Under the pieces are notes generated by a model. It did no database searches. It was not told the DNA's origin and saw only the letters and a program-made list of their open reading frames with translations. This document shows, piece by piece, positions 20,779 to 23,829 of a stretch of 64,000 bases of DNA. Source of the DNA: Acidimicrobiaceae bacterium (GTDB taxonomy: Bacteria; Actinomycetota; Acidimicrobiia; Acidimicrobiales; Ilumatobacteraceae); contig JAHEDX010000003.1 in the NCBI GenBank assembly GCA_024641005.1, positions 1-64,000 on the forward strand. The letters are read 5' to 3'. Position 1 is the stretch's first letter, and each line of letters starts with the position of its first letter. Both the position numbers and the translations under genes were made by a program.

Positions 20779-21365
20779 CAGAACAGTTCCTCGATCGCCG
20801 AGCGCAGCCCGTCGCCATCGATCTCGCCGGTCTGGCGAAGCACGCGACCATCGGCGCTGACGAACAGGGTGACCGGGTACGCCACGATGCCGAGGCCATC
20901 GGACACGGTGCCGTCATCGAGCAACAGGTCGTACTCGACGCCACGCTCGTGCGCGAACCGTTGCATGGCGTCTGCGGTGTCGAATGGATCGACGCCCACG
21001 AACTGCACCCGATCACCGAGGTCGGCGTCGACGGTTGCGAAGTCGCGCAGCTCCCGCCTGCAGGGCGCGCAGCGCGAGAACCAGAAATTGATCACGAGCG
21101 GTCGGCCTCGATATCGGTCGAACTCGACGCTTCGGCCGTCGAGATCCGTCAACCCCCCGACCGGCAACTCCGACCCCGTCGTGTCGGGATTGACCTCGTC
21201 GGAGGGTTCTTCGAAGATCCCTGGCTGGTCGAGCACGAACTCACCGTCGATCGGGGGCGTGCCGTCTCGGGCCCCCGCCAACCACACGCCGCCGAACAGC
21301 GAGACGGCCGCGGCGAGGACACCCGCTGTCAGAGCGACAGCAAGGTGACGGGTGCGCGTGGCCAT
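20778..21365 (-). CDS. TlpA/ResA-like thioredoxin-fold membrane protein
   Basis: A 195-residue exported thiol-disulfide protein. An N-terminal helix (VALTAGVLAAAVSLFGGVWLAG) acts as signal-anchor. The thioredoxin fold starts near 65, and the active site is FSRCAPCRREL (C99, C102). TlpA/ResA proteins reduce apocytochrome c or apo-oxidase before metal or heme insertion, receiving electrons from CcdA, encoded immediately downstream with a 4-base overlap. The window holds several c-type cytochrome proteins that could be clients. Confidence 0.88.
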   Translation of the reverse strand: MATRTRHLAVALTAGVLAAAVSLFGGVWLAGARDGTPPIDGEFVLDQPGIFEEPSDEVNPDTTGSELPVGGLTDLDGRSVEFDRYRGRPLVINFWFSRCAPCRRELRDFATVDADLGDRVQFVGVDPFDTADAMQRFAHERGVEYDLLLDDGTVSDGLGIVAYPVTLFVSADGRVLRQTGEIDGDGLRSAIEELF

Positions 21366-21472
21366 GGCCCCAGGCTACGAGACCACCGGCTCCGGCACCC
21401 TTCGGCCTCGGAGTCCGCACGGGGAGGTGCGGGCTCCGAGGCCGTGAACAGGGCTGCGACCCGCCGGCAAGG

Positions 21473-21829
21473 TCACACGGCGACCCGATCGATCGTCTCG
21501 TTCGGATCGACGACGCCGAGTTCGTTCACGATGATCGGAGGCCGAGGCCTCTTGGGAGGTCGGCCGCCGGGTCTCTTGTGAGCGACGATGCGCCCTCCGG
21601 AGAGGAGCTCGCCACCCCAGACGCCCCACGGTTCCTCACGTTCGAGTGCCTCGTCCAGGCAGGACACCCGCAATGCGCACTTGGCACAGATGGCCTTGGC
21701 GCGTGCGATGTCGAGCACATGATCGGAGAAGAACAGCGGAGTGAGGGTGCCGTTGCCATCGGCACAGCGGGCGACCGGGATGGTCGAGATCGAGCAGTCA
21801 TCGATGGATTGGAGCTGGATCGTGTTCAT
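21473..21829 (-). CDS. whiB7: WhiB7/WblC-like transcriptional regulator
   Basis: A 118-residue WhiB-family iron-sulfur regulator. The four cluster cysteines are C22, C48, C51 and C57; the turn GVWGG is at 69-73. A basic AT-hook follows, KRPGGRPPK at 85-93, in the place where WhiB7 proteins carry KRPRGRPRK. That hook separates WhiB7/WblC from other paralogues. WhiB7 binds the primary sigma factor and turns on intrinsic antibiotic-resistance genes. The gene is preceded by a leader ORF and a terminator-like hairpin, the regulatory layout known for whiB7. The C-terminus beyond the hook (25 residues) is specific to this protein. Confidence 0.85.
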   Translation of the reverse strand: MNTIQLQSIDDCSISTIPVARCADGNGTLTPLFFSDHVLDIARAKAICAKCALRVSCLDEALEREEPWGVWGGELLSGGRIVAHKRPGGRPPKRPRPPIIVNELGVVDPNETIDRVAV

Positions 21830-21875
21830 GGTGATTGTCTTTCTGGTGGTGAAACATTGAGGCGGAAAACGAAGA

Positions 21876-21903
21876 AGGCCGCCGGGTCGGAACCCGGCGG
21901 CCT
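21876..21903 (-). promoter_or_regulatory. Attenuator-like terminator hairpin in the whiB7 leader
   Basis: A perfect 12-bp GC-rich stem (AGGCCGCCGGGT and its complement) with a 4-base loop, followed on the minus strand by TTCTTCGTTTTCC. It lies 27 bases after the leader-ORF stop and 46 bases before the whiB7 ATG, so it would stop transcription before whiB7 unless prevented. It could alternatively be the ordinary terminator of the small gene. Confidence 0.7.
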
Positions 21904-21930
21904 CGGTGTGAGGGTGATTCGACGTTCGGT

Positions 21931-22182
21931 CTACGTCGACCCCACTGCGAGGTGCCGGGCTGGGCGCTTGGTGAACGAGAGGTTCTCGGCGCCGGCCGTG
22001 GTGGTGGTGGTGTTGCCCAGATACGCGTGCATCGCGACTGCTGCAACGCCGGAGATGCCACTGCGGTGAGCCGCCGAAGCAACGGTGTGCTCCCGCCAAC
22101 TCGGGCAGGCGACCACAGGGGACGCGCCACGGCGAGCGCGACCGGGCGCCTGGCCCTGGTACTGCGTCGTCGTCGTGTCCAT
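21931..22182 (-). CDS. Leader ORF upstream of whiB7 (83 aa)
   Basis: A short reading frame with a convincing start: AGGAG lies 6 bases before the ATG at 22182. The 83-residue product begins MDTTTTQYQGQAP, has a second run of five threonines (NTTTTTAG, about 57-64) and shows no domain or clear membrane helix. Third positions are GC-rich, as in real genes here. In mycobacteria and streptomycetes, whiB7/wblC is controlled by translation of an upstream ORF: ribosome stalling prevents formation of a terminator. This ORF, the hairpin behind it and the WhiB7-like gene match that layout. Whether the peptide itself has a role is unknown. Confidence 0.65.
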   Translation of the reverse strand: MDTTTTQYQGQAPGRARRGASPVVACPSWREHTVASAAHRSGISGVAAVAMHAYLGNTTTTTAGAENLSFTKRPARHLAVGST

Positions 22183-22296
22183 CGTGTACTCCTGCTCTCG
22201 GGTTGCGCGCCGCAAGGTGCGCGGATGAATCAACAGTGGATCACGCACCGCGCGTCGGAGTCAAGGAGGTTTCGACCGGCCCGTCGATCGACCCGT

Positions 22297-23367
22297 TCAG
22301 TCGGCCAGTACGTACCGGTACGGAGATGGATCCGTTGCACGGGTCATCGCCCCCGACTGACGCAGGTGCTCGAGGTGGGCGAACGTCTCGCTGTCGGCCA
22401 TCCTGCCCTGCACCCGTGCCGAGAACAGCCGCCGGGAGAACTCGGCAACGGTGGCGGGTCTGCCGATCTGCTCGGCTGCCGAACGCAGCTGCTCCAGCCG
22501 GTCGACATGGTGCTGCTTGATGGCCTCGACGCGTCGGGTGAGCCCGGCAAAGGGATGCCCGTGGGCCGGGAGGGCGACCGAGACGTCGTCGCCGTAGGCC
22601 GCGACCTTGTCGAGCGATTCCATGAAGGTCGCCAGGGGATCGGCGAGCGGTGAGAGGCCACCGACGTGTGGCGTGATCGTAGGGAGCACGTGATCGCCCG
22701 ACAGCATCACGCCGCCGGCGGGGTCGTACAGACAGAGGTGGTCATCGGTGTGTCCAGGGGTGTGGATGGACACCCAGTCGCGCCCACCCAGCGAGATCGT
22801 GTCGGCATCGCTCAGACGGACCGTCGGCACCGGCGCGTGCATCAGGCGTGGAAAGCGACGTGATGCCTGCATGGCGAGCTTCCGCCTTCGCGAGAATGCC
22901 ATGCGTTCGCCACCCCACGGCGTCGGGTCCCACGGGAACCTGTGCCCGACCGGTTCGGTCACCTCCGGGAGGTCCTCGACGTCGACGTCAGGCGGTTCGA
23001 GGGGGTCCCACATCAGACGGAATCGTTGGTGCGTGACGATGCGGGCACCCGATTCGTGCCGCACCCGCCCGGCACCGCCGAAGTGGTCGGGATGGCTGTG
23101 CGTGACCACGACGGTATGGACCCGCTTGATCGGGATGCCTGCCGCCGACAGGCGATGGCGTAGCACCTTGAAGGACGACGGGCCGGGCAACCCCGGGTCG
23201 ACGATGGCGACACCGTCTGGATCCTCGAGCACGTAGCAGTTGACGTGCCCCAACCCGGTGAACTCGATCGGGAGTTGGGCGCGCAAGATCCCTGGTGCGA
23301 CCTCGGTGACCTCGTCGCTCGCCTGTTCCTGCTCCTGCTTTGGCACCCGCCCGGTCGTACCGGTCAT
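22297..23367 (-). CDS. MBL-fold metallo-hydrolase
   Basis: A 356-residue metallo-beta-lactamase-fold enzyme. The metal motif HSHPDH is at 90-95 (H90, H92, D94, H95). Further ligands come from HTPGHTDDH near 203 and the aspartate in LSGDHVLP near 224. A C-terminal helical region (about 260-356) looks like the winged-helix-type tail of LACTB2/glyoxalase II-like hydrolases. The substrate may be a thioester or lactone; it is not determinable here. The gene lies immediately upstream of the whiB7 leader on the same strand (114 bp gap) and is divergent from the second WhiB gene. Confidence 0.84.
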   Translation of the reverse strand: MTGTTGRVPKQEQEQASDEVTEVAPGILRAQLPIEFTGLGHVNCYVLEDPDGVAIVDPGLPGPSSFKVLRHRLSAAGIPIKRVHTVVVTHSHPDHFGGAGRVRHESGARIVTHQRFRLMWDPLEPPDVDVEDLPEVTEPVGHRFPWDPTPWGGERMAFSRRRKLAMQASRRFPRLMHAPVPTVRLSDADTISLGGRDWVSIHTPGHTDDHLCLYDPAGGVMLSGDHVLPTITPHVGGLSPLADPLATFMESLDKVAAYGDDVSVALPAHGHPFAGLTRRVEAIKQHHVDRLEQLRSAAEQIGRPATVAEFSRRLFSARVQGRMADSETFAHLEHLRQSGAMTRATDPSPYRYVLAD

Positions 23368-23508: not shown

Positions 23509-23829
23509 GTGAGCACCGCCGAACTGTTCCGTGACGATGCCGGCTGGACGGTCGACTGGCGCGAGCTGGCGCTGTGTAAGGCGCAGACCAGCTTGTTCTT
23601 CGGGCCGAAAGCCGAACGACCGGAAGCTCGGGCGCGACGCGAGGCCAAGGCCCTGCGGCTGTGTCAGGTGTGCCCGGTACGAGTGCCGTGCCAGGAATTC
23701 GCCCGATCGAATCGCGAATACGGCCTCTGGGGCGGCGAGAACGAGGAGGATCGGCACCATGCGGGGTTTACCGTGACAGCGGCGGTCGGAGTCCGTTCCA
23801 CCCGCCGAGATGCCGATACGACTCGCTGA
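23509..23829 (+). CDS. WhiB-family regulator
   Basis: A 106-residue WhiB-like protein. The cluster cysteines are C23, C52, C55 and C61, and the turn is GLWGG at 72-76. The C-terminus (ENEEDRHHAGFTVTAAVGVRSTRRDADTTR) has arginines but no AT-hook, which separates it from the WhiB7-like paralogue 1.7 kb away. WhiB proteins bind a [4Fe-4S] cluster and region 4 of the primary sigma factor. The start is a GTG without a clear Shine-Dalgarno site; an AT-rich candidate promoter lies just upstream. I cannot assign it to WhiB1-6. Confidence 0.87.
   Translation: MSTAELFRDDAGWTVDWRELALCKAQTSLFFGPKAERPEARARREAKALRLCQVCPVRVPCQEFARSNREYGLWGGENEEDRHHAGFTVTAAVGVRSTRRDADTTR

Follow-up and report, generated by a model that had tools for sequence, protein, structure and literature searches.

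A predicted ribosome-mediated attenuator upstream of whiB7 in the Acidimicrobiia and the near-complete amino acid content of its leader ORFs

INTRODUCTION

In the window analyzed here (64,000 nt of contig JAHEDX010000003.1), a leader ORF is followed by a terminator-like hairpin and then by a WhiB-family gene, which raises the question of whether translation of the leader decides if the gene is transcribed and, if so, what the leader reads. The host of the whole leader-whiB7 locus is an Ilumatobacter-like actinobacterium of the class Acidimicrobiia, and the locus lies on the minus strand throughout. A sequence-only reading had proposed ribosome-mediated attenuation of whiB7 and had regarded the leader as unusually long, with two threonine runs through which it might sense translation in its own way.

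An attenuator with an upstream ORF (uORF) was reportedly set out for whiB7/wblC of Mycobacterium and Streptomyces by Lee, Lee and Roe in 2022. Leader peptides specific for an amino acid are familiar from trp, his, thr, and ilv. The same attenuation logic as that considered here has been described for whiB7/wblC in Mycobacterium and Streptomyces (PMC11550727, PMC10727445, PMC4128351), and an ilv leader has been described for M. tuberculosis (PMC13236596). The mechanism is already known; what was unexpected here is the near-complete amino acid content of the leaders in Acidimicrobiia.

RESULTS

The regulated gene encodes a predicted WhiB7-type protein

The product of the downstream gene (Table 1) scored 48.5 bits against PF02467 (Pfam Whib; cutoff, 23.6), and its top PDB match was WhiB7 (7kif; E, 7.7e-19). 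Cys22, Cys48, Cys51, and Cys57 were invariant in 15/15 aligned sequences, with an Fe-S cluster predicted, and EPWGVWGG, also invariant in the 15, fits the definition of WhiB7 as a protein with EPW adjoining G[IVL]W[GA]G (PMC10727445). The protein carries REEPWGVWGGEL plus the AT-hook-like KRPGGRPPK that the sequence-only reading had picked out; the window has GGRP where the RGRP of an AT-hook is expected, and RGRP is present in several relatives in the alignment. The closest named relatives were Ilumatobacter genomes, with 82% identity in L039 and 88% over residues 1 to 108 in L040. A WhiB-like match was found in 150 of 150 same-family genomes searched, not every match being a WhiB7. From these matches we predict a WhiB7-type regulator, a putative activator of resistance genes acting with the primary sigma factor.

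Other WhiB genes lie nearby. One (positions 23509 to 23829, plus strand, 106 aa, 48.6 bits to PF02467) is 1.7 kb from whiB7. Most members of the genus and a number of relatives (L010, L011, L013 to L017, L020, L021, and L026) have a second WhiB7-like gene, with EPYGVWGG for EPWGVWGG, that starts ~0.8 to 1.2 kb upstream of whiB7; it is absent beside the window whiB7 and in L012, and no terminator was called in the stretch scanned before the EPYGVWGG genes. Four records titled Bifidobacterium breve (L056, L057, L063, and L084) contain Ilumatobacteraceae-like whiB7 loci, and their titles are therefore probably wrong.

Table 1. Positions of the elements of the leader-whiB7 locus in the window
Feature	Positions	Strand	Basis
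WhiB7-type promoter motif: GAAACC, 3 nt (TCC), -35 TTGACT	22259-22273	minus	motif, genus alignment
Candidate -10 TCCACT, 18-nt spacer	22235-22240	minus	guess
Shine-Dalgarno (SD) AGGAG of leader ORF	22189-22193	minus	sequence
Leader ORF (uORF), 83 sense codons + TAG	21931-22182	minus	ORF list, SD, relatives
Strand A, antiterminator 5' strand AGCCCGGCACCTCG, in last uORF codons	21948-21961	minus	fold, duplex scan, covariation
Hairpin B, TCGACGT/ACGTCGA, nested inside antiterminator	21919-21939	minus	fold, covariation
Strand C, terminator 5' arm CGAGGCCGCCGGGTT	21891-21905	minus	hairpin scan, duplex scan, covariation
Intrinsic terminator, 13-bp stem 21904-21875, T-rich tail to 21865	21865-21904	minus	hairpin scan, covariation
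WhiB7-type regulator gene, 118 aa	21473-21829	minus	Pfam, PDB match, alignment

A leader ORF and a terminator precede whiB7 throughout the class

The order seen earlier, of an ORF with a good ribosome site, a terminator-like hairpin, and a WhiB gene, held up. The hairpin has a 4-nt loop and the tail CTTCGTTTTC and is the sole terminator-like site within positions 21000 to 23000 (mean in shuffles, 0.7). It does stand shortly after the ORF, at a distance of 26 nt and not the 27 nt first given. Among 158 fetched Acidimicrobiia records encoding EPWGxWGG, 152 had at least 350 nt upstream, some species being represented twice among these, and 130 of the 152 had a perfect-stem terminator upstream of whiB7. 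The other 22 comprised 16 with a bulged GGCCGCCGGG hairpin, one with a different strong hairpin (L141), one with only a weak, unrelated hairpin (L135), and 4 with no terminator by either method, although one of these 4, L027, had in another scan a hairpin that resembles a terminator but has a poor T tract.

In one clade (L082 to L104, L109, L124, and L126), the terminator has a conserved one-base bulge, mostly GGCCGCCGGG..CCCGAGCGGCC, and in most leaders Trp occurs as part of an MWS motif and the end is preceded by ..NKR... The spacer between terminator and whiB7 (positions 21864 to 21830 in the window) is C/A-rich and G-poor in many relatives (e.g., L015, L019, and L034); such a spacer could contain a Rho-type site or could just keep the mRNA open.

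A uORF of 25 to 125 codons ending 16 to 40 nt before the terminator was found at 127 of 128 distinct terminator loci (one of them, L111, a Frankia locus, also present in the sets of 127 and 96 leaders used below) when weak starts were allowed; with the same limits and a strict requirement for ATG plus SD, 79 of the 127 loci had one, versus 1.6 in base shuffles. The gap from stop codon to terminator was narrowly distributed over the 127 leaders (median, 28 nt; 5 to 95%, 22 to 34 nt). Leader length in Acidimicrobiia had a median of 62 codons and a range of 29 to 111. Leaders had 48 to 121 codons in the order holding Mycobacterium and 97 to 127 in the main group of the order holding Streptomyces, these orders being assigned from record titles or by inference, and loci of Mycobacterium, Gordonia, and others had leaders of 48 to 127 codons, each with its own terminator. 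Extraction outside Acidimicrobiia failed to return a leader at 37 of 108 loci, in part because the hairpin rules were strict, and two ORFs called there (L243 and L245) appear mis-called. The 83 codons of the window leader are thus ordinary, contrary to the idea of an unusually long ORF.

Conservation of the leader sequence was weak, with dN/dS of 0.15 to 1.65 in 29 of 30 pairs (1 was not computable). The layout of uORF and terminator was nevertheless kept class-wide, so the lack of conservation among close relatives that the sequence-only reading had named as counterevidence was not what we found. A uORF with an SD sequence upstream of an intrinsic terminator is present here, and its translation is predicted. 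We considered pausing at rare codons and rejected it, since leader codons are the preferred ones, with no rare-codon enrichment; the sole codon standing out was TAT (0.42 versus 0.27).

Covariation supports a predicted antiterminator

Folding, which had been suggested as a way to look for an alternative structure, returned an antiterminator composed of the A:C duplex and hairpin B. Strand C is common to this fold (A:C) and to the terminator (C:D). The 5' arm of hairpin B has the T of the uORF's stop codon as its last base, and strand A spans the region from 28 to 14 nt before the stop (medians over 89 loci). We counted pairs in an alignment of 63 of 64 family sequences (62 distinct), with L028 taken out manually on account of a called stem that begins earlier. 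The antiterminator (A:C plus B) paired in 88.6% of cells, versus 24.5 to 42.7% when slid and 83.0% in column shuffles. Cells changed on both sides numbered 75, versus 26.1 in shuffles, a count reached by 0 of 500 shuffles; such changes occurred in 7 of the 17 antiterminator pairs, a number that 33 of 500 shuffles reached, and in 4 of the 7 pairs of hairpin B. The terminator paired in 98.8% of cells. One antiterminator column pair (30-99) was G-C in 43 and A-U in 19 and was never broken (62/62 distinct sequences), whereas in the terminator, 11 of the 19 sequences with U at column 99 had a U-G wobble; judged from the alignment, therefore, the antiterminator is conserved no less strictly than the terminator. 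Clades differ in the peptide that strand A encodes (..ARHLG.. or ..TPGRLEG..) while the pairing persists, which indicates that RNA is the constrained level there.

Duplex z-scores at single loci were weak (median, -1.6; 51/128 below -2), probably because the leaders are GC-rich, and RNAalifold alone returned the terminator and no antiterminator; the case for the antiterminator is made by the alignment counts, not by the single-locus z-scores. Searched with a covariance model (R1), 6 genomes each gave one strong match, which was the whiB7 leader, and no further attenuator copy at high score. The next-best match (26 bits, in one genome) lay amid rapZ-like and methyltransferase-like ORFs and was taken as chance. 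No Rfam family reached its gathering threshold in the leader (best, 21.8 bits; cutoff, 45).

A promoter motif of the WhiB7 type precedes the leader

A WhiB7-type motif stands ~90 nt before the leader ORF in the window, and 76 of 96 leaders had AAW-N3-6-TTGA(C/A) in the 200 nt that precede the ORF, versus 1.1 expected in base shuffles. The published WblC/whiB7 motif is GAAAWY 3 nt upstream of the -35 element (PMC7157823; PMC10727445). GAAACC-TCC-TTGACT of the window fits it except for the C at the W position, and we predict that this is a WhiB7-type autoregulated promoter.

How the leader would switch whiB7

It is highly probable, in our judgment, that this is a transcription attenuator of the whiB7/wblC type, which reads how well ribosomes elongate. 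Transcription would start at the WhiB7-activated promoter upstream of the leader. A ribosome close behind RNA polymerase would cover strand A while C and D emerge, and with A masked, the C:D terminator would form and whiB7 would stay off. Upon exposure to an antibiotic or at a hungry codon, the ribosome would slow or stall upstream of about codon 71, so that A could pair with C and hairpin B could form at the stop codon. The A:C duplex would then preempt the terminator, and the WhiB7 made would feed back on its own promoter.

We modeled masking on the window leader, with a 30-nt ribosome footprint and strand D not yet made. The probability of A:C was 0.80 to 0.94 with the ribosome at sampled positions from codon 21 to codon 69, 0.48 at codon 71, 0 at codons 73 to 82, and 0.09 at codon 83. 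A ribosome on the stop codon left strand A unmasked (P of A:C, 0.86), which makes its timing with respect to RNA polymerase important. For the full leader at equilibrium, the terminator was favored at every ribosome position (P of C:D, 0.82 to 0.86); switching must therefore be kinetic, as it is in other attenuators.

These results establish the parts of the switch and their conservation, and they show that both folds covary and that the masking geometry is compatible with such a switch. The covariation, taken together with the analogy to published systems, makes attenuation by ribosome position very likely, and the attenuation proposed by the sequence-only reading is borne out by the antiterminator covariation, the class-wide conservation, and the presence of a promoter motif upstream of the leader, with none detected between hairpin and whiB7. 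From this we infer that the leader switches in vivo and to which signals it would respond.

Leaders contain more different amino acids than expected

The window leader lacks none of the 20 amino acids and has a single Trp, at codon 29. We thinned the 127 leaders to 96 that share <12% of 9-mers, which is not a phylogeny correction and removes relatedness only partly. All 20 amino acids occurred in 36 of these 96, the window leader included, and 19 or 20 occurred in 60; the mean was 18.76 distinct amino acids per leader. Shuffles of pooled residues gave 17.44 (standard deviation [SD], 0.11), with all 20 in 6.5 leaders (maximum, 14). Shuffling within clade and GC strata gave 17.42 and 6.0 (maximum, 13), and shuffling in pools of four consecutive loci gave 17.60 and 7.0 (maximum, 16). 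Equal-length windows from 642 long ORFs had 16.2 to 16.6 distinct residues, with all 20 in 1.9 to 2.7, and 648 spurious ORFs inside genes showed the opposite trend (16.33 versus 17.38 shuffled). Because strand A constrains the sequence of the last codons, we also removed these: without the last 10 codons, the leaders had 18.28 versus 16.84 distinct residues and all 20 in 27 versus 3.9, and without the last 13, they had 17.61 versus 16.46 and all 20 in 11 versus 3.0. The last new residue was often a terminal Lys (29/96) or Glu (22/96), close to the masked zone.

Absences from the 96 leaders were fewer than composition predicts for Trp (6 versus 34.1), Cys (20 versus 39.3), Tyr (12 versus 30.8), Phe (2 versus 14.9), Lys (4 versus 15.6), Asn (4 versus 14.0), Met (7 versus 17.6), Ile (9 versus 18.3), and His (3 versus 8.7), with no such deficit for Glu (27 versus 26.8), Asp (16 versus 19.8), or Gln (12 versus 15.5). 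Exactly one Trp was present in 79 leaders, two were present in 11, and none was present in 6.

In 361 leader pairs of 40 to 92% identity, which are not independent of one another, we asked how often a residue lost at its column was present elsewhere in the leader. It was so more often than expected (expected counts in parentheses) for Trp in 170/181 (116.6), Phe in 340/341 (295.1), Tyr in 302/366 (245.1), Cys in 216/300 (175.2), Asn in 392/398 (342.0), His in 268/272 (245.3), Met in 282/311 (256.9), and Lys in 90/92 (77.3); Ile was slightly above expectation at 334/404 (320.4), and no excess was seen for Gln in 238/286 (239.7), Asp in 290/400 (304.2), or Glu in 222/347 (239.4). On these sequence comparisons, the amino acid content of the leaders is kept while positions turn over.

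Other sets of leaders delimit the pattern. A held-out set of 60 further stretches yielded 39 leaders, 14 of them new; the 39 had 17.95 distinct residues versus 17.00 (SD, 0.17), and the 14 new ones showed a smaller effect (17.64 versus 16.75; SD, 0.29). The 43 leaders from outside Acidimicrobiia showed a weaker excess, at 18.21 versus 17.49 (SD, 0.14), with all 20 in 12 versus 3.1 and no Trp enrichment. Twenty leaders, from the freshwater clade whose terminators are bulged and from a few other loci, had 17.20 versus 15.96 shuffled before thinning; thinned to 6, the same set showed no excess (16.67 versus 16.80). Trp was present in all 20 of these, Cys was missing in 18, and Glu was missing in 16. 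Mycobacterium-type leaders (L108, L114, L117, and L213 to L215) had 13 to 17 distinct residues. Neither the freshwater clade nor the Mycobacterium-type leaders fit the breadth pattern.

What the leader would sense

We tentatively propose, separately from the attenuator itself and less surely, at a little short of even odds, that selection maintains one or more codons for nearly all amino acids upstream of strand A, so that a shortage of any charged tRNA or a drug that impairs elongation would stall the ribosome and switch on WhiB7. As part of the same tentative proposal, the residues kept above all would be those rare in leaders (Trp, Cys, Tyr, Phe, His, Lys, Met, Asn, and Ile) and not Glu, Asp, or Gln. 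Broad amino acid sensing is the most economical reason that we can offer for the breadth, the turnover with retention, and the neglect of Glu, Asp, and Gln together.

Alternatively, the leader may sense by length only, any translatable stretch sufficing, with more codons giving more chances to lag and breadth arising as a by-product of drift. This is a serious possibility, though we would not bet on it. It would account for the weak conservation of leader sequences, for their preferred codons, for the freshwater clade without Cys and mostly without Glu, and for the narrow residue sets of Mycobacterium-type leaders, in which the mechanism is reported all the same. It does not predict the excess of leaders with all 20 amino acids, which goes beyond composition, GC, and clade strata, nor the opposite trend of spurious ORFs, nor the tendency of Trp, Cys, Tyr, Phe, His, Asn, Met, and Lys, but not of Asp, Glu, and Gln, to be retained elsewhere when lost at a position.

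The near-universal single Trp could instead belong, with a terminal K-R, to an arrest peptide that is read in the ribosome tunnel and stalls in a drug-dependent manner. The Trp column was kept in 530 of 711 pairwise comparisons, and a Lys lies 7 to 18 codons before the stop in 77 of 96 leaders. We nevertheless think this unlikely: the distance from Trp to the terminal Lys is not fixed (68 leaders; median, 17 codons; 10 to 90%, 9 to 38), nor is that from Trp to the stop (15 to 49), the residues and codons flanking the Trp vary, and the terminal peptide differs between clades where the RNA pairing is kept.

That the Thr runs are the regulatory codons of a thr-type leader is very improbable, for although TTTT and TTTTT are present in the window and Thr makes up 9.8% of leader residues versus 5.6% in control proteins, the runs are not retained beyond close relatives (TTT and TTT in L012, TT pairs only in L011, none in most of the class) and the dispersion of Thr among leaders (0.96) is as composition predicts. 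The suggestion that the leader senses translation in its own way was a useful pointer, the signal appearing to lie in amino acid breadth and not in threonine. Equally hard to credit is a hairpin that merely ends an upstream transcript, with whiB7 having its own downstream promoter: an ORF labeled by eye as MBL-fold type (22297 to 23367, minus strand) does lie upstream in the same direction, but there was no match to the sigma-70 consensus in 21000 to 23000, no promoter-like site was detected by sequence between hairpin and whiB7 (such a promoter having been named earlier as evidence against attenuation), the WhiB7-type motif stands before the leader, the antiterminator covaries, and the gap from stop to terminator is held to 22 to 34 nt.

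DISCUSSION

The locus resembles the whiB7/wblC attenuator of Mycobacterium and Streptomyces in its uORF with an SD sequence, its Rho-independent terminator, its autoregulated promoter carrying an AT-rich motif next to the -35 element, an antiterminator that uses overlapping uORF and terminator sequence, and the EPW motif and AT-hook-like tail of WhiB7. It differs in the stem (GGCCGCCGGG here, GGCCACGGA there) and in the nearly complete amino acid set with a single Trp, which is strongest in Acidimicrobiia. The nesting of hairpin B, at the stop codon, inside the antiterminator is described for the present loci. As with the trp, his, thr, and ilv leader peptides, ribosome position would select antiterminator or terminator; unlike in those, there is no conserved run of a single codon but breadth over amino acids. 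The toiL uORF of E. coli topAI is likewise one uORF that senses several ribosome-targeting antibiotics (PMC12121999), and the whiB7 leader differs from it in downstream genes and organism.

Stalling inside the whiB7 uORF is called untested in a passage of a 2025 paper (PMC12121999). Published work reports that wblC/whiB7 responds to amino acid starvation (PMC12421871; PMC12121999), that drugs induce whiB7 (PMC12421871, PMC10287673), and that whiB7 was the most induced transcript in M. abscessus when one serine tRNA was depleted (PMC10287673). Broad amino acid sensing would fit the induction by starvation and by serine tRNA depletion. The titles and abstract openings that we searched, a scope outside which the 2022 attenuator and alanine-starvation papers fall, contained no description of amino acid breadth in whiB7 leaders.

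These results extend the whiB7 attenuator, with covariation support, to the class Acidimicrobiia. If the leaders are indeed broad sensors, this reading predicts which codon change would blind a leader to which starvation. A leader with nearly every amino acid would explain how one alarm serves many signals; whiB7 would then be a general alarm for translation quality, with a type of leader distinct from that of one-amino-acid attenuators.
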